Assembly: GCA_001785175.1 (NCBI GenBank)
Contig: MFSY01000026.1
Location: 5,196-17,956 of the forward strand
Source of the DNA: Candidatus Muproteobacteria bacterium RIFCSPHIGHO2_01_FULL_65_16
GTDB lineage: Bacteria; Pseudomonadota; Gammaproteobacteria; Acidiferrobacterales; Sulfurifustaceae
DNA: 12,761 bases
Reading direction: 5' to 3'
Shown here: positions 2,461 to 12,761 of the stretch, one piece after another
How positions within the stretch are numbered: position 1 is the stretch's first letter
Layout: every line of letters begins with the position of its first letter
Made by a program: the position numbers and the translations under genes
Notes under the pieces: generated by a model
Database searches by the model: none
Told to the model about the DNA's origin: nothing
What the model saw: the letters and a program-made list of their open reading frames with translations, nothing else

Positions 2461-2540
2461 ATCTGTGTTCATCTGTGTTCATCTGTGGTTTCGCTGTTGT
2501 TCATCTAAATGCCTTTTCTCTGCGTCTCTGCGGTGAAAAT
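2461..2540 (+). repeat. Dispersed repeats: ATCTGTGTTC right arm and TCTCTGCGTCTCTGCGG element
   Basis: Bases 2461-2491 are the inverted partner of 2132-2162. Bases 2516-2539 hold a second family, TCTCTGCGTCTCTGCGGTGAA. Its reverse complement is closely matched by the segment at 5535-5565, after the GHKL ATPase gene (CGCAGAG, GGAGAC and GGAGAAAA words in the same order). It ends about 40 bases beyond the 3' end of the btuF-like gene on the opposite strand. Confidence 0.65.
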
Positions 2541-2581
2541 CGTGCTTCGGTAATTTTCCGCGGTTCCCGAATCGGCATGGT

Positions 2582-3466
2582 TCAGCGCCGGCCGCGCGCC
2601 GCTTCGAGATCGGCGCAAAGATGCTCCGCTCCGTCCAGAATGCGCGGCCCGTGGCGCTGGAGGACATCCGGCGGGACCACGAACAGGTTGTCGCGCCGTA
2701 CCGCTCTCAGCTGCGGCCAGCGCCGCCAGGCATCGAACCACTCCGGGCGCGATGCGCCGGCGCCGCTCGCAACAATCGCCTCCGGATCGGCGGCGAGCAC
2801 CGCCTCGACATCCACCGTCGGCGCCAGTATGGGCAGATCGGCAAAAACATTGCGCCCGCCGCACAGATGGATGACATCGCTGATGAGCTGTTTTCCGTTC
2901 ACCGTCATGAGCGGCCGATCCCAGATCTGATAGAACACCGTCACCGCCGGGCGCGCAGCATAGCGGCGGCGCAACGCCTCGTGGCGCTGACGGAAGGCTC
3001 GCGCCGCCCGGAGCGCGGCATCCGCGGTTCCGGCCAACCGCCCGAGGCGCTCGATATTCGTCGCGACATCCTCGATATGACGCGGCTCGGAGACGTAGAC
3101 CGCCAGACCGAGCGCGCGCAACCGCTCCACCTGGGACGGCGGGTTGCCGCTCTGCCAGGCGATGATGAGGTCCGGCCGCAACGCCACGATCGCCTCGAGA
3201 TCGAGACCGGTATAGCTCCCGACCCGCGGGATGCGCTTCGCCGCCTCGGGATAATCGCTGTAATCCACAGCGCCGACGACATACCCGCCGGCGCCGGCGG
3301 CATACAGCAGTTCGGTTACATGGGGCGCAAGACTTACGACGCGGCGCGCGGGCGCGGCGAGCACGACCGTCGCGCCCGCGTCGTCCGGCACGCGGGTCGG
3401 CGCCGGCGCGGGGGCCGCGCCGAGCAGTCCGAGCAGCACACCCGCAAGGAGGCCGTGGGTTTTCAT
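2582..3466 (-). CDS. btuF: Cobalamin-binding periplasmic protein, BtuF-like ABC transporter component
   Basis: The 294-residue product is a class III periplasmic binding protein that would capture corrinoids and pass them to a BtuCD-type permease. An N-terminal hydrophobic signal (about 1-21, LLAGVLLGLLGA) supports export. Two lobes follow. The first has RRVVSLAPHVTELLYAAG (41-58), VGAVDYSDYPEAAKRIPRVG (64-83) and LEAIVALRPDLIIAW (90-104), all hallmark segments of BtuF. The second has YQIWDRPLMTVN (179-190), ISDVIHLCGGRNVFAD (195-210) and RHGPRILDGAEHL (271-283). It is convergent with the upstream cob genes, and no btuC or btuD is visible in the window, so the permease must be encoded elsewhere. 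It is bracketed by 47-bp direct repeats. Siderophore-binding relatives share the fold, but context favours B12. Confidence 0.87.
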   Translation of the reverse strand: MKTHGLLAGVLLGLLGAAPAPAPTRVPDDAGATVVLAAPARRVVSLAPHVTELLYAAGAGGYVVGAVDYSDYPEAAKRIPRVGSYTGLDLEAIVALRPDLIIAWQSGNPPSQVERLRALGLAVYVSEPRHIEDVATNIERLGRLAGTADAALRAARAFRQRHEALRRRYAARPAVTVFYQIWDRPLMTVNGKQLISDVIHLCGGRNVFADLPILAPTVDVEAVLAADPEAIVASGAGASRPEWFDAWRRWPQLRAVRRDNLFVVPPDVLQRHGPRILDGAEHLCADLEAARGRR

Positions 3467-3515
3467 GCCGCGAATGCTAACATGACGCGGCGCGGCGCTT
3501 TGAGTGATAATCCTA

Positions 3516-3562
3516 AAAACGGCGATTGCATCCGCAGATTACGCAGATTTCCGCAGATTTTA
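3516..3562 (+). repeat. Dispersed repeat 'CCGCAGATTACGC' type, copy B
   Basis: This is the second copy of the 47-bp repeat at 2073-2119 (45 of 47 identical, same orientation). It lies 50 bases upstream of the btuF-like start codon, in the divergent spacer before the GHKL ATPase gene. Confidence 0.85.
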
Positions 3563-3631
3563 AGAACGGGTGCGCCAGGCAGTCATTCAAACCAATTGAT
3601 TCATCTGCGTTAATCTGCGAAATCTGCGGAT
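3530..3631. repeat. Imperfect 29-bp inverted repeat (potential large hairpin)
   Basis: Bases 3530-3558 and 3603-3631 are inverted copies, matching at 26 of 29 positions, separated by 44 bases. Each arm is built of GCAGATT words, so the right arm is a third, inverted copy of the repeat core at 3516-3562. The structure sits in the intergenic region of two divergently transcribed genes and could extrude as a cruciform or form a hairpin in either transcript. No obvious promoter is separable from it. Confidence 0.75.
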
Positions 3632-3689
3632 AACTGATTTTTCCAGGATAATCCGGACACGAACGCCGTTCTCTGACGACCCCTACTCC

Positions 3690-5775: not shown

Positions 5776-5803
5776 TCAACAAAAAAATCTTTGCGTTCTT
5801 TGT

Positions 5804-5940
5804 GCTGTACAGGGACGTACTAATTTCCACGTCGCGCCGGGACGCGCGGTTGACGTGGATGCTGTACAGGGACGTACGAATTTCCACGTCGCGCCGGGAC
5901 GCGCGGTTGACGTGGATGCTGTACAGGGACGTACGAATGT
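5804..5940. repeat. 57-bp tandem repeat, about 2.4 copies
   Basis: Units start at 5804, 5861 and 5918 with GCTGTACAGGGACGTAC; the third stops after about 23 bases. Full units 1 and 2 differ at a single base (T5821 versus G5878). Each unit contains an 8-bp inverted repeat, TCCACGTC (5826-5833) / GACGTGGA (5852-5859). Because 57 is a multiple of three, several frames stay open on both strands, producing spurious repetitive ORFs. No start codon or ribosome site supports translation. Confidence 0.9.
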
Positions 5941-7748: not shown

Positions 7749-8204
7749 CTAACCTACGGCGCGCTTTTCCCGGCGCAAGCGCACGATCACGTCTATGCCT
7801 TGCAGGCGCGCGCCCTCGGGGAGCGAGGGAAGGCCGGTTACATGGATATCGCCGGCATCTATATCGGACAGTTCCTTGGTCACTTCGTCGTAGAAGTGGT
7901 GGTGGGGGGTTATGTTGGGATCGTAGAATATCTTGGTCGGGTCGGCGATCACCTCGCGGATCACGCCCCTGTCGGCCAGCAGCCCGAGCGTATTATAAAC
8001 CGTGGCCTTGGACACACTCTGATCCGCCGCCCCATTCCTCCGGACGGTGGCGTTGACAATGTTGTACACCTCCTCCGCCGAAAGGTGGGAGGGGTTGGAG
8101 TACAGCTCGCGCGTGATCTGCACCCGCTGGCTCGTTGGGTTGATCCCATGCTGGCGCAGCAGATCCACGATCTCGTTATCGGAGTAGCTTCTGATAACTC
8201 TCAT
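7749..8204 (-). CDS. Fur-family transcriptional regulator, Irr/PerR-like and cysteine-free
   Basis: This 151-residue protein has the Fur architecture. The N-terminal winged helix includes NPTSQRVQITRELY (22-35), SAEEVYNIVNATV (42-54) and the DNA-recognition helix VSKATVYNTLGLL (64-76). It is followed by the dimerisation/metal domain with IFYDPN (92-97) and THE-LIKE metal motif HHHFYDEVTKELSDI (101-115). The His triplet and following acidic residues match Irr/PerR-type proteins, which sense haem, iron or peroxide. The whole protein contains no cysteine, so it lacks the structural zinc CxxC pairs of Fur and PerR. The ATG at 8204 has no strong ribosome site. It is divergent from the minor-pilin operon with a 444-base shared upstream region. 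The specific signal sensed is not determinable here. Confidence 0.88.
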   Translation of the reverse strand: MRVIRSYSDNEIVDLLRQHGINPTSQRVQITRELYSNPSHLSAEEVYNIVNATVRRNGAADQSVSKATVYNTLGLLADRGVIREVIADPTKIFYDPNITPHHHFYDEVTKELSDIDAGDIHVTGLPSLPEGARLQGIDVIVRLRREKRAVG

Positions 8205-8525: not shown

Positions 8526-8534
8526 GACGAACGG
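8526..8534 (-). promoter_or_regulatory. AlgR-type binding box (inverted)
   Basis: GACGAACGG on the plus strand is a perfect reverse-complement match to the AlgR consensus CCGTTCGTC. It lies 115 bases upstream of the annotated fimU ATG, about 196 bases from the next box. Confidence 0.6.
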
Positions 8535-8648
8535 CCACTGACAAAGTGCGGCAATTGCACGTTATCAAAGGCGCATTAGACTTAAAAAGCAGGATATACC
8601 GCGATCCGCGGAAAATGCGGAGTTTTACGCGTACTCGGGAAGGCAACG

Positions 8649-9302
8649 ATGAACGACATGCAATCGAATTCGCACCACAAAGGGCCGAATCAGCTGATTC
8701 CCCGGCCCTCTTTTATCCGGCCAGAAATACCGTTCGTCGGGGGAATTATACCGCAGCCATTACCGTTCGTCGGCTATAAACTACCATCCGTACTTATTCC
8801 TGATTCCCAATCACGATTTACCCTACTCGAATTACTTTTAACCTTAACAATTGCCGGGATATTGATGACATTGGCTGTTGCTGGAATGAGTAACTTCATC
8901 AACTCCAATCGCCTGACAACGACAACCAATGATCTGGTCGCGGACTTAAATCTCGCCCGAAGTGAGGCCGTAAAGCGCGCCGGAAATGTCGTTGTGTGCA
9001 AATCCGATGATGGCGCCGATTGTACCGGCACGGGCACGTGGGCGAGCGGGCGGGTTGTTTTTTTCGATGCGGATTCGAGCAACACCAAGACCGCGGGCGA
9101 CACCGTGCTTCGGGTGCATGAAGCCATGGCCAGCGGCAACACGGTCACCGCCTCCGCCTCCGATGTCATTGTCTACTCCAAACAGGGGGCGATCACAGCC
9201 GGCTCCGGCGATTACACAATCTGCAATTCAAACATGAAGCGATCCCGGACCATCGGCATATCGGCCACCGGCCGCGCGTCTCTTACGCAAGGAGCCTGCT
9301 GA
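8649..9302 (+). CDS. fimU: GspH/FimT-family minor pseudopilin, FimU-like
   Basis: This is the first gene of the minor-pilin set that primes type IV pilus assembly. Residue 57 starts the prepilin core FTLLELLLTLTIAGILMTLAVAG, with the conserved Glu at +5. A GspH/FimT domain follows: DLVADLNLARSEAVKRAGNVVVC (starting near residue 97), a CKSDDGADC cysteine pair, and a C-terminal GISATGRASL strand. Two features are abnormal. The residue before Phe57 is Arg (codon CGA) instead of the Gly needed by prepilin peptidase PilD, and the leader is 56 residues where about 6-15 are usual. No in-frame ATG, GTG or TTG lies between the first residues and the core. The ATG at 8649 does have a GGGAAGG ribosome site 5 bases upstream. 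The leader region contains two AlgR boxes. The gene ends in a TGATG overlap with pilV. Confidence 0.82.
   Translation: MNDMQSNSHHKGPNQLIPRPSFIRPEIPFVGGIIPQPLPFVGYKLPSVLIPDSQSRFTLLELLLTLTIAGILMTLAVAGMSNFINSNRLTTTTNDLVADLNLARSEAVKRAGNVVVCKSDDGADCTGTGTWASGRVVFFDADSSNTKTAGDTVLRVHEAMASGNTVTASASDVIVYSKQGAITAGSGDYTICNSNMKRSRTIGISATGRASLTQGAC
8730..8738 (+). promoter_or_regulatory. AlgR-type binding box 1 (direct)
   Basis: A perfect CCGTTCGTC match within the 13-bp direct repeat TACCGTTCGTCGG (8728-8740), which recurs at 8761-8773. It falls inside the annotated leader of the fimU-like gene. Confidence 0.65.
8763..8771 (+). promoter_or_regulatory. AlgR-type binding box 2 (direct), beside a TATAAA -10-like hexamer
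   Basis: A second perfect CCGTTCGTC, 33 bp (about three helical turns) downstream of box 1 and in the same orientation. TATAAA at 8775-8780 follows with a poor -35 match, as expected of an activator-dependent promoter. A promoter here would put the transcript start close to the prepilin core, so its role is uncertain. Confidence 0.65.
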
Positions 9303-9817
9303 TGAGAACCACGCTATATGCCGCCAACATCATCCGCGGCGACGCCGTCAGGGGGTTTTCGCTGATCGAGGTGCTGGTCGCCTTGCTGGTGCTTTCGCTC
9401 GGGCTGCTCGGCCTCGCCGGGCTGCAGCTCACCAGCATGAAGTACAACACCGACGCCTACACCCGCACCCAGGCCACGCTCTTCGCCTATGACATCCTTG
9501 ACCGCATGCGCGCCAACTCGACCGGCAGGGCGAACGGAGACTATGACGCCAGCACCCAAGCCGCGGCGGACGCCAAGGTGTCGAGTTATGACAGTTGCAA
9601 GGGCTCTACCTGCCAGTGCGACGGCAGCACGGCATGCAGCACAAGTAATCTGGCCCTCTACGACTTCGGCAAGTGGCAGGAAGGGCTGGAGCAGGCCATT
9701 CCCGGAGCGGCGGCCGTCAGATCCACGATAGAAAGAACCGGAAACCAGGTTACGGTCACTATCCGATGGCAGGAACGTGAATTCCAGAAAGACCAAAAAT
9801 GGGTGGCCGAGTTATGA
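9302..9817 (+). CDS. pilV: Type IV pilus minor pilin PilV
   Basis: The 171-residue product has a classical class III prepilin signal. A short basic leader ends in RG at 17-18, cleavage falls before Phe19, and the core FSLIEVLVALLVLSLGLLGLAG carries Glu at +5. The LLGLAGLQL tract after the helix and QATLFAYDILDRMRAN are typical of PilV/GspI-like minor pilins. A cysteine-rich loop (CKGSTCQC, then C) lies at about 99-117, probably giving disulfides in the periplasm. The ATG is overlapped by the fimU stop (TGATG), with AAGGAG 7 bases upstream. It works with FimU, PilW, PilX and PilY1 in the initiation complex at the pilus tip. Confidence 0.93.
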   Translation: MRTTLYAANIIRGDAVRGFSLIEVLVALLVLSLGLLGLAGLQLTSMKYNTDAYTRTQATLFAYDILDRMRANSTGRANGDYDASTQAAADAKVSSYDSCKGSTCQCDGSTACSTSNLALYDFGKWQEGLEQAIPGAAAVRSTIERTGNQVTVTIRWQEREFQKDQKWVAEL

Positions 9818-10896
9818 GATACGCCGTCAACACACCGGACAATATCCGCGGGCTCAGCATAGTGGAGCTGATGATCGCGCTCACAATCGGGCTGGTCATC
9901 CTCGTGGCCGTGACCACGCTCCTGGTCAACAGCAAAAGAACTTACACGACGCAGGATCGGCTCGCGCGCGTGCAGGAAAACGGGCGGTTCGCCATGCAGT
10001 TCCTCATCAAGGACCTGCGTCTGGCTGGTTATTACGGATGCTCGAACGATATCACCAGTATAAACAACACGCTTGACACGTCCGATCCCAGCAAATTTTA
10101 TCCGTTTAACGCGGCCTACCCGCTGGAAGGCCTGGAAGCGGCCGGCGGAGCCTGGTATCCGTCAAACAGCACAACCATGCCTTCCAAACCGGTCAAGGCT
10201 GGTACCGACGCCGTCGCCATACGCAAGTTGGATCCATCGTCTTCCTTCAGCCTTGTCAAGGAAATGCCCAACGAATCCGCCGTGCTTTTTCTTGATTCCG
10301 CGAGCGGACTGAAAGATGGCGATGTCGTCATGGTCTCGGACTGCTCGAGCGGCGATCTCTTTCAGATCACAAATATTCAGGATGGATCGGGCGTTAACTC
10401 CGGTAAAAAAGGCGTTGTCCATAATCCCGGCGGTGGAGACCCAGGAAACGCGACGCAGGAACTGAGCAAGTCATACAGCCCCCCGGGCGCGTCCATCATG
10501 AAGTTCACGAGCAGCAAATATTTCATATCCACGGGCGCCGGCGGGGGGCCCGCGTTGTTCCGCGAAGATGAAACCGTCACCCCGCCTGTTGCCGAGGAAC
10601 TGGTTGAGGGTATAGAGAGCCTCCAGATCCTCTATGGCAAAGACACGGACGGAGACAAGATGCCGAATATATATCTCAAGGCCGGCGCGTCCGGCCTTGA
10701 GACGGAAAGCGATTGGAACAGCGTGGTCAGTGTGCGCGTCGGGGTGCTCGCGGTCACCACGAATCAGGAAGACGCGGAGACTGACTCCGCTTCTTACGAT
10801 GTAGACAAGGACGGAACAGACGACCTCATCGCGCCGGGCGATCGCAACAAGCGCCGTGTCTTCCTGTCCACCGTGGTCATGAGGAATATGCAATGA
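9814..10896 (+). CDS. pilW: Type IV pilus minor pilin PilW
   Basis: I chose ATG 9814, which forms an ATGA overlap with the pilV stop and gives 360 residues with a 13-residue leader (MRYAVNTPDNIRG). An in-frame ATG at 9799 would only lengthen the leader. Cleavage is expected after Gly13, giving LSIVELMIALTIGLVILVAV with Glu at +5. The RTYTTQDRLARVQENGRFAMQFL and DLRLAGYYGC segments after the helix are hallmarks of PilW/GspJ-like proteins. The large periplasmic domain ends in a region predicting a Val/Thr-rich sheet (SVRVGVLAVTT). It belongs to the minor-pilin priming complex and is translationally coupled to pilX by ATGA. Confidence 0.93.
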   Translation: MRYAVNTPDNIRGLSIVELMIALTIGLVILVAVTTLLVNSKRTYTTQDRLARVQENGRFAMQFLIKDLRLAGYYGCSNDITSINNTLDTSDPSKFYPFNAAYPLEGLEAAGGAWYPSNSTTMPSKPVKAGTDAVAIRKLDPSSSFSLVKEMPNESAVLFLDSASGLKDGDVVMVSDCSSGDLFQITNIQDGSGVNSGKKGVVHNPGGGDPGNATQELSKSYSPPGASIMKFTSSKYFISTGAGGGPALFREDETVTPPVAEELVEGIESLQILYGKDTDGDKMPNIYLKAGASGLETESDWNSVVSVRVGVLAVTTNQEDAETDSASYDVDKDGTDDLIAPGDRNKRRVFLSTVVMRNMQ

Positions 10897-11393
10897 ACAC
10901 GTTCGGTGTCGCCATTCATACCGGCAAGACCGCCGCCGCGGCCCGTGGCGGTGCGCGGGTGAAGGCATCGGGGTTCTCCGATACCAGCGGCGCGGCGCTG
11001 GTTACCAGCCTCGTGATCCTGCTCGTGCTGACGATTCTGGGACTGGCGGCCATGAGCACTTCGTCGCTTGAGGAAAAGATGTCCGGAAACATACAGGATG
11101 CCACGTTCGCGTTTGAAGCGGCGGAGTCCGGCCTGAACAAAGCGCTGACCACCGCGGGCACGCTCAGCCTTTCCGGGACGACGACCAATAGTTTTGATTT
11201 TGACAGCGGCAAAAGCGGAAGCGCCTCCGTGCAAACGGAATTTCTCCAGTACTCACCGCCCAAGCGCGGATCGGGCTACGGCAGCAATTTCGACGTCGCC
11301 AACTTCGATCAGACGAGCACGGGAACGACAACCTCGGGCGCCAAGGCGGTGATTCATCAAGGCGTGGGACAGGTCATACCCAAGGCCAATTAG
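10893..11393 (+). CDS. pilX: Type IV pilus minor pilin PilX
   Basis: This 166-residue protein carries the PilX N-terminal signature: GAALVTSLVILLVLTILGLAAM (33-54) followed by SLEEKMSGNIQDATFAFEAAESGL (58-81). Cleavage is expected between Gly33 and Ala34, so the +5 Glu of other pilins is absent, as is usual in PilX. The 33-residue leader is rather long and Ala/Arg-rich; no later in-frame start is obvious. GAGGAA lies 6 bases before the ATG, and the ATG overlaps the pilW stop (ATGA). In other bacteria PilX promotes pilus assembly together with PilY1. Confidence 0.9.
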   Translation: MNTFGVAIHTGKTAAAARGGARVKASGFSDTSGAALVTSLVILLVLTILGLAAMSTSSLEEKMSGNIQDATFAFEAAESGLNKALTTAGTLSLSGTTTNSFDFDSGKSGSASVQTEFLQYSPPKRGSGYGSNFDVANFDQTSTGTTTSGAKAVIHQGVGQVIPKAN

Positions 11394-11409: not shown

Positions 11410-12761
11410 ATGAAAAATTACCTACTGCATTTAAACCGCTTGCTGCTTATTCTGGCCGCGGGCGCGGCATTCGCCATGCTCGGCGCTACGGACGTCCGGG
11501 CGAAGGACACGGACATATACCTCAAGGCGCCGGCCATCGCGCGTGACGATTCGCCCAATGTCCTCCTTATCATTGATAACTCCATAAGTATGAACACGGA
11601 TGTCGCCAGCAGACCCGCATATGTCTCCACAATTGATTATTGCAGCGGCGACCTGGATACATTAACGGGCATAAGTGGCGCCAACGGCGGCAAACCCAGC
11701 GGCTGCTCGTCCATCGCAAACCGGGTGTACTGGTCATTTAGCTCGAATCCCCCATCATACAGCTCGACCAGCTGGGTTGCGGCGTCCAAAAACCGCTGCT
11801 CCAGCACCACGACTCCATTCGCCGATTCCGGGAAATATTCGGGAGACAAGATTGTGGGATACAGGCCCAGCGGGAGCAACAAAGGATGGAGATCGCTCAA
11901 AAACCGCGTAGATGGCGATTTTGATTACATAGATTGTCAAAGCGACGACGGCGCCACCGCTCCCTATGGCTATGTACAGGACAATAGTATAAACCCACGG
12001 GCCGCCTACACCACCGCCGCCGGCGACCAGTTCGTATGGGCGAACTATACGAGCAACACCAGCCCCGCGCTTTATGCCTCCAATTACATGAACTACTGGT
12101 ACAACACGGCGCTTTCAACGACAAGAACAAGGCTTCAGATCGCCAAGAGCACCGTCAATGGCATTATTGACTCGAACCCGTCGGTCCGCTTCGGGCTGAT
12201 GGTGTTCAACACGAATAGCGATGGCGCGCCCGCCGACACCGGAAACCATGGCGGCAGGGTGGTCATGAAGATAGACACCATGGACGACGACCGGCGCACC
12301 AGCATGAAAAGCGTCATTAACAGCCTGACCGCGAGCACCAGTACGCCGTTGTCCGAAACCATGTGGGAGGCCAGGCGTTACTTTGGCGCTCAGGGCGTGG
12401 ATTACGGGGACAATGATGCTTCCGCCACACCGGCGCGGGATACGACGGCTGAAAGCGGCGGCAACTACGTATCGCCGTTTATGTACGGCTGCCAGAAAGC
12501 CTTCGTCATTTATATGACGGATGGCGACCCGACCCGTGACGTTGACGCGGACTCCAAGATCAAGGGGTTGAGCGGGCTTTCGGGCAGCAGTTGTCAGGGC
12601 ATCTCCGGCCTGAGCGGGGATGCGACGCTCAGTTGTCTCAAGGAACTTTCCGGTTGGATGCATAACAACGACGTCTATGCCGGGCTGTCCGGCAATCAGA
12701 CCGTCAATACCTATACGATCGGCTTCGGCACCGGCATCTCGGCCGACGGCAAGACCTTGCT
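11410..12761 (+). CDS. pilY1: Type IV pilus tip protein PilY1 (N-terminal part, runs off the window)
   Basis: The ATG at 11410 opens a reading frame of at least 450 codons with no stop to the window end. The first ~31 residues form a signal peptide (LLLILAAGAAFAMLGA, then ADVRA-like cleavage). A von Willebrand factor A domain follows, with the MIDAS motif DNSISM at 56-61, TPLSETMWEARRYF and the third metal site YMTDGDP later in the domain. PilY1 is the large calcium-binding tip adhesin and mechanosensory regulator of type IV pili; its C-terminal beta-propeller lies beyond the window. The domain holds several Cys pairs. The start is 16 bases after pilX in the same operon; pilE would be expected downstream. 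Confidence 0.93.
   Translation, partial: MKNYLLHLNRLLLILAAGAAFAMLGATDVRAKDTDIYLKAPAIARDDSPNVLLIIDNSISMNTDVASRPAYVSTIDYCSGDLDTLTGISGANGGKPSGCSSIANRVYWSFSSNPPSYSSTSWVAASKNRCSSTTTPFADSGKYSGDKIVGYRPSGSNKGWRSLKNRVDGDFDYIDCQSDDGATAPYGYVQDNSINPRAAYTTAAGDQFVWANYTSNTSPALYASNYMNYWYNTALSTTRTRLQIAKSTVNGIIDSNPSVRFGLMVFNTNSDGAPADTGNHGGRVVMKIDTMDDDRRTSMKSVINSLTASTSTPLSETMWEARRYFGAQGVDYGDNDASATPARDTTAESGGNYVSPFMYGCQKAFVIYMTDGDPTRDVDADSKIKGLSGLSGSSCQGISGLSGDATLSCLKELSGWMHNNDVYAGLSGNQTVNTYTIGFGTGISADGKTL

Follow-up and report, generated by a model that had tools for sequence, protein, structure and literature searches.

Copies of a 9-bp box of AlgR type lie at the start of a minor-pilin operon in the DNA analysed here (the window, the whole stretch of 12,761 nucleotides, to whose first letter all positions refer), and two of them fall within the annotated leader of the first gene, fimU. 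This raises the question of whether the boxes form an operator, which protein would bind it, and how an operator could come to lie inside a translated reading frame.

The minor-pilin operon

The first-pass annotation had placed the boxes upstream of a minor-pilin operon, and the domain content of the frames upheld this context: a GspH/FimU-like gene is followed by PilV-like, PilW, PilX and PilY1-like frames in the order fimU-pilV-W-X-Y1, the last of them partial and with a VWA match below the cut-off. The features of the operon are as follows.

8637-8643, plus strand: GGGAAGG, a possible ribosome-binding site 5 nt before the ATG, recognised by eye
8649-9302, plus strand: fimU-like minor pilin gene of the GspH family (open frame of 217 residues; Pfam GspH, 1.7e-19)
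8814-8837, plus strand: prepilin processing motif R/FTLLELL, in frame, with Arg at -1
9302-9817, plus strand: pilV-like minor pilin gene (Tt1218-like and N_methyl domains)
9799-10896, plus strand: pilW (PilW domain, 3.9e-24)
10893-11393, plus strand: pilX (PilX_N, 4.7e-15)
11410-12761, plus strand: pilY1-like frame, cut by the contig end (VWA_2 below the Pfam cut-off; named mainly by position)

Read from the ATG at 8649, the fimU leader comprises 56 residues, and the GspH domain of the gene product is accompanied by an FTLxE motif with Glu5. Ribosome-binding sites were poor or unclear, by eye, in several relatives. Elsewhere in the window, a divergent Fur-family gene at 7749-8204 on the minus strand is nearest to the IrrA and Irr models, at scores below their cut-offs, and a tandem repeat at 5803-5938, with a 57-bp unit present in 2.4 copies (98% matches), is open in two overlapping frames.

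An ordered array of AlgR-type boxes

A pattern search of both strands recovered the three exact copies of CCGTTCGTC that had been reported, at 8730-8738 and 8763-8771 on the plus strand and at 8526-8534 on the minus strand, and no further exact copy in the window. The 33-bp distance between the plus-strand copies and the 13-bp direct repeat around them (TACCGTTCGTCGG, at 8728-8740 and 8761-8773) were likewise as described. With one mismatch allowed, nine matches were found in the window against 5.43 (sd 2.57) in shuffled sequence, and 22 of 200 shuffles reached nine, so that at this tolerance the window shows no excess of the box. The genome from which the window comes is an assembly of 135 contigs and 1.7 Mb with a completeness of 79%. 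Exact copies of the 9-mer number 24 in its 1,705,043 bases and those of a reversed-letter control pattern 35, and thus the 9-mer alone shows no genome-wide enrichment. These two counts place the signal in the clustering of the boxes and not in the 9-mer itself; the genome-wide rate of the exact 9-mer predicts about 0.0035 copies per 248 bp.

The two plus-strand copies proved to be part of an 84-bp array (8709-8792) with positions at offsets 0, 21, 42 (weak), 54 and 75. The degenerate boxes at 8709-8717 and 8784-8792, the weak position at 8751-8759 and the 21-33-21 spacing had all been missed in the first pass. The array and the isolated minus-strand copy are made up as follows.

8526-8534, minus strand: isolated inverted exact CCGTTCGTC, a possible half-site (pattern match; no partner at 21 bp)
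8709-8717, plus strand: array box 1, TCTTTTATC (consensus CCTTTTATC; alignment of 23 arrays)
8730-8738, plus strand: array box 2, CCGTTCGTC (exact match and alignment)
8751-8759, plus strand: array position 3, weak, CCGCAGCCA (weak conservation at offset 42)
8763-8771, plus strand: array box 4, CCGTTCGTC (exact match and alignment)
8772-8783, plus strand: linker between boxes 4 and 5, GGCTATAAACTA, which includes TATAAA at 8775-8780 (aligned consensus GGnnAnAAnAnA)
8784-8792, plus strand: array box 5, CCATCCGTA (alignment)

The 21-33-21 spacing is invariant in all 23 aligned arrays, with a gap of 12 nt inside each box pair, and the consensus across these arrays is CCGTTCGTC with G or A at base 7. 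This gap falls within the range of LytTR operators, which are described in the accessible part of PMC4847170 as two repeats of 9-11 nt lying 11-13 nt apart. The window's array holds the AlgR-site core in two exact plus-strand copies of CCGTTCGTC, a sequence that forms the core of the P. aeruginosa algD sites RB1 and RB2 (PMC4064291, in the part available). The degeneracy of boxes 1 and 5 in the window counts against the reading as an AlgR array.

A sequence-only DNA model built from the 23 arrays, the window's own among them, matched the full array in its own genome at 60.6 bits (E 1.2e-16), and this was the sole match up to E = 10. The inverted box at 8526-8534, which had been counted as a third AlgR box, has no fixed counterpart in the 30 loci analysed below and forms no 21-bp pair, and it was not retained as part of the array. 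When a paired site was sought in the region of the window upstream of the array, the best score had p = 0.39. In 9 of 29 loci, not including the window, another 21-bp pair precedes the array by about 220-290 bp.

Spread of the array among genomes

A search with the FimU protein gave matches in 42 of 60 related genomes, and the leaders of many of the fetched loci contain repeated PF[VI][GC] in the pilin frame, which at the level of DNA is the fixed box array. Within the order, the model found the array at near full length in 29 of 57 genomes, with 32 matches. Thirty of these matches, the window included, were taken as the loci for analysis, seven of which lie outside the training set of the model (L046, L049, L052, L056, L059, L060 and L061). 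The family of the window is represented by 20 genomes, four of which (G001, G007, G016 and G019) gave no array match, and the model found none in the 18 genomes of family f4.

In a sample of 369 genomes from the class, the model matched 11, of which three belong to the order; the matches in the remaining eight were partial. Outside the order, locus L066 shows the five-position layout in frame with the pilin and without a start codon after it, and the model matched in all four genomes of its family (E 0.01). The loci L063, L150 and L151 of the same family carry similar box rows with a start codon inside or after them.

Named genomes were covered by an alignment-based search, which identified 63 relatives, 12 of them with the array; a search of named-genome contigs with the single FimU protein had confirmed no relatives. 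The 12 carriers include Candidatus Muproteobacteria, Acidiferrobacterales, Acidiferrobacteraceae, Sulfuricaulis and unplaced Gammaproteobacteria/Proteobacteria, and some are the same genomes as in the order set (L083, found from L039, is 100% identical to its query), so that they are not independent cases. By these names the order, and the window with it, probably belongs in or close to Acidiferrobacterales. A recognised pilin motif is present in 47 of the other 51 named loci. A plus-strand pair (at least 12 bits, at most 500 nt upstream) occurs in 12 of these 47 array-less loci, at -112 to -285, and a minus-strand pair in three of the 47. At each of the 12 loci the plus-strand pair is separated from the pilin motif by a start codon, and the embedded array is thus a departure from the usual position. 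The PilE-like gene at L064 also has a start codon between its box pair and the pilin motif. In UBA6908 (L087:219-305), two extra box pairs lie upstream of the array, at offsets 219 and 273, besides those at 492 and 546.

The array lies inside the fimU reading frame in most loci

The first-pass annotation had remarked that the boxes overlap the annotated coding start of fimU. This holds for the window and is the rule in the order: no ATG, GTG or TTG occurs between the array and the prepilin motif in 26 of the 30 loci, and the frame test agrees. In 17 loci rare start codons are absent there as well as common ones, which rules out a late non-AUG start after the array in those loci, and translation is predicted to begin upstream of the boxes. 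The array is in frame with the prepilin Phe (or Val, Leu) codon in all 30 loci, this codon being 96-117 nt from the array start and 12-33 nt from the array end, and the frame is open through the array in 28. All seven loci outside the training set are in frame without stops in the array, and one of them (L059) has a late start codon.

Stops in frames 0, 1 and 2 number 2, 41 and 52 over the array plus 12 nt (2, 41 and 51 in a slightly shorter count) and 1, 24 and 15 over the 48 nt before the array. The two stops in frame 0 compare with 36.8 expected (sd 5.7; minimum 19 in 2000 in-place linker shuffles), a large effect in a set of related sequences that are not independent. A start codon follows the array in four of the 30 loci (L053, L055, L058 and L059). 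Two of these, L055 and L058, combine a stop within the array with the later start codon and yet keep an unchanged frame distance (108), so that being in frame is in itself no proof. Transcription of the array is probable, and in most loci so is its translation, as part of a leader that prepilin peptidase should remove.

Prepilin peptidase is expected to find Gly (or Ala) at -1. Across the 30 loci, window included, this residue is Gly in 27, Ala in two and Arg in the window alone. The Arg codon (8814-8816) may be a genuine peculiarity of this genome or stem from a faulty assembly, and it is doubtful whether the leader is cleaved at this locus.

Constraint on bases and on amino acids

The bases of the boxes are conserved beyond the peptide that they encode. 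The proline codon is CCT in 22 of 28 cases in box 1 and CCG in 27 of 28 in box 2, codons that make up 15% and 38% of Pro in the mature part. The third codon is GTC or ATC in 27, 28, 28 and 21 of 28 cases for boxes 1, 2, 4 and 5, box 5 being the looser one; in the mature part, GTC accounts for 35% of Val and ATC for 57% of Ile.

Differences per codon position were compared in seven loci of one genus, a divergent set that may be saturated, and came to 0.48/0.47/0.47 for the stretch preceding the array; the linkers gave 0.55/0.49/0.62 and the boxes 0.21/0.02/0.28. In two closer pairs of loci, the first 120 nt of the mature part gave 0.15/0.15/0.52 and 0.10/0.02/0.28 per codon position. Changes in the leader before the array numbered 3, 4, 4 and 5, 1, 6 by codon position in these two pairs, and changes in the linkers 7, 2, 3 and 2, 6, 6. 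There is little codon-level constraint on the leader amino acids, though not none.

A promoter-like element upstream of the array

A conserved promoter-like element precedes fimU in the window and consists of two parts.

8551-8558, plus strand: GCAATTGC, the -35-like part (TTGCAC at 8555-8560 is a possible -35)
8576-8584, plus strand: TTAGACTTA, the -10-like part (TAGACT at 8577-8582), 17 bp from GCAATTGC

The element GCAATTGC-N17-TTAGACTTA is perfect in the window at 8551-8584, where it starts 158 bp before the array and ends 64 nt before the ATG, and a transcript start is predicted near 8589. With up to three mismatches it was found upstream of 17 of the 30 arrays, about half of the loci, against 0 of 30 in a downstream control and none in 20 shuffle sets; with up to five mismatches it was found in 20 of 30, the shuffles giving a mean of 3.25 and a maximum of 7. 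The spacer was 17 bp in the best match of all 18 loci with at most four mismatches, spacers of 14-19 having been allowed. The element is absent upstream in 13 of 30 loci at three mismatches and in 10 of 30 at five.

An activator-dependent promoter had been suggested from the TATAAA just after the second plus-strand copy of the box. This proposal did not survive: TATAAA (8775-8780) is part of the linker that joins box 4 (8763) to box 5 (8784), and similar A/T-rich letters occupy the same position in the alignment of relatives. Immediately downstream of the array, at 90-116 bp from its first base, sigma70-like pairs begin in at most five of 30 loci, and further on they occur in 0-3 of 30, compared with 10 of 30 upstream of the array (for L032 the scan covered 124 nt upstream only, and its most distant positions may have wrapped around). 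On these counts a promoter directly following the array was rejected. In operons of LytTR regulatory systems, about 10 bp separate the repeats from a -35 downstream of them (PMC6193735, in the part available); the window has no pair in that position, its promoter-like element being upstream of the array, and the locus is unlike those operons in having no such promoter after the array.

An AlgZ-AlgR-like pair

A search of the window's own genome for an algZ/algR (LytTR) pair, which the first-pass annotation had put forward as a check, revealed an AlgZ-AlgR-like pair by domain layout. The one LytTR-domain match in this genome is in a receiver-LytTR protein encoded directly after, and adjoining, a His_kinase gene of AlgZ type. 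The name AlgR is given because of the domain layout, the neighbouring gene and the core of the boxes; an NCBIfam search gave no match above the cut-off among the 25 families listed. Of the 57 genomes of the order, 54 encode an AlgR orthologue with at least 74% identity, among them the window's own, and the remaining three (G010, G015 and G018) gave receiver-domain matches only, with no orthologue at that identity. As algR is found in array-less genomes too, co-occurrence does not single out AlgR. In the own genome, algR is preceded by a tandem of two His_kinase (PF06580) genes (L146:1437-2486 and 2496-3632); P. aeruginosa has one His_kinase gene at algR.

Proposed mechanism and alternatives

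Our reading, to which we give slightly better than an even chance, is that the translated fimU leader contains an operator array for the LytTR-type regulator AlgR, which binds it and most likely activates the promoter upstream. The operator would consist of two 21-bp-spaced box pairs, 33 bp apart, inside the leader, with the predicted transcript start about 120-200 bp upstream of it. AlgZ would activate AlgR, AlgR dimers would bind the array, and the bound AlgR would most likely raise transcription from the weak upstream promoter in the fashion of an enhancer. Prepilin peptidase should cut the leader off, and since the leader should be removed, its amino acids would be nearly free and the DNA could be used as an operator while the frame stays open. 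A wider proposal, which we hold tentatively and at somewhat less than an even chance, is that the prepilin leader has a dual role, as a discarded and nearly unconstrained peptide spacer and as the site of the operon's main AlgR array within the frame; the start codon would have moved upstream of an older array, and the operator would so have been absorbed. In the family of L066, the start codon lies inside or after a similar box row in three of four array loci.

The main rival keeps the same array and the same binder and would make of them a brake, AlgR blocking the polymerase about 120-200 bp downstream or looping with upstream sites. The array does lie downstream of the promoter-like element where this was found (17 of 30 loci at three mismatches), upstream pairs are present in 9 of 29 loci, and a dense array would suit a roadblock. 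We nevertheless regard a brake as unlikely, since AlgR activates the fimU operon in P. aeruginosa (PMC4064291, PMC8787478, in the parts available) and the weak hexamers of the predicted promoter would fit an activated one; of these two effects, activation from within the leader is the most likely. It is less probable again that the array is bound by another LytTR-type regulator or by an unrelated one. AlgR was assigned as the binder from sequence, and algR is present in array-less genomes, but the search of the own genome, in a 79% complete assembly, gave a single LytTR domain, and boxes 2 and 4 are identical to the AlgR core published in PMC4064291, in the part available.

An ordinary upstream operator with a mis-annotated start would place the promoter just downstream of the array and the start of FimU after it. 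This arrangement would account for the start codon after the array in four of 30 loci, for the start inside or after the array in three of four array loci of the other family of the class, and for the 12 of 12 other named loci with a plus-strand pair in which a start codon separates pair and motif. We consider it very improbable, as 26 of 30 loci lack ATG, GTG or TTG there and 17 lack rare starts too, the array ends just 12-33 nt from the Phe codon, sigma70-like pairs follow the array in at most five of 30 loci, and in-frame stops are strongly avoided. The constant frame of the repeats might also reflect selection for the PF[VI][GC] peptide, with a protein function for the leader repeats. That is hardly credible when the codons of the boxes are fixed beyond the amino acid and differ between box 1 and box 2, when differences before the array are spread 0.48/0.47/0.47 over the codon positions (seven loci, one genus), and when single pairs of this DNA occur at non-coding places elsewhere. 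Least probable of all is an RNA-level element in the fimU mRNA: the array would be transcribed if the promoter prediction holds, but no consensus RNA structure was found, with 0 predicted pairs on 23 arrays.

Relation to known AlgR and LytTR systems

The P. aeruginosa fimU-pilVWXY1Y2E operon (ABS1, ABS2) resembles the present locus in operon type, in the kind of regulator pair and in having related sites, and AlgR there activates fimU from sites ahead of the gene, a phosphodonor raising its affinity (PMC4064291, PMC8787478, as far as their available text goes). In P. aeruginosa the sites are located between fimT and fimU, and their sequences, CCGTTTGGC and CCCTCGGGC, deviate from the core (PMC4064291, in the part available). 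Here, by contrast, the array is preceded by the start codon in most loci and comprises 4-5 boxes at a fixed 21-33-21 spacing. The algC gene of P. aeruginosa is similar in that ABS2 (+163) and ABS3 (+391, in the ORF) lie downstream of the transcript start, and its ABS1 shows enhancer-like position independence; activity was kept when an algC AlgR site was moved to +532 (PMC4064291, in part). It differs in that its sites are single, whereas an ordered array in a pilin leader is conserved here across the order. LytTR direct-repeat operators of the YpdB and HdrR types share the 9-bp-class repeats and the 12-bp gap (PMC4847170, PMC6193735, in the parts available). An AlgR-type array inside a pilin leader was not found reported in the literature, judged by titles and the openings of abstracts, which is no proof of absence.

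If activation by AlgR from within the leader is correct, the control that AlgR exerts on minor pilins in P. aeruginosa would extend to an order of environmental bacteria, and the leader would be a clear natural example of translated DNA in which a regulator array is preserved at the level of single bases. The action of LytTR regulators from downstream of a promoter and the absorption of an operator into a gene would both become testable. The start sites of such pilins should not be shifted downstream merely to obtain a short leader.

One 1.8-Mb genome of the class (G276; loci L062, L070 and L073-L082) gave 12 partial matches to the array model. These are mostly single AlgR-type pairs, several of which lie about 100-200 bp before open frames, one frame being ankyrin-like by eye, and a wider LytTR regulon in this genome is possible.
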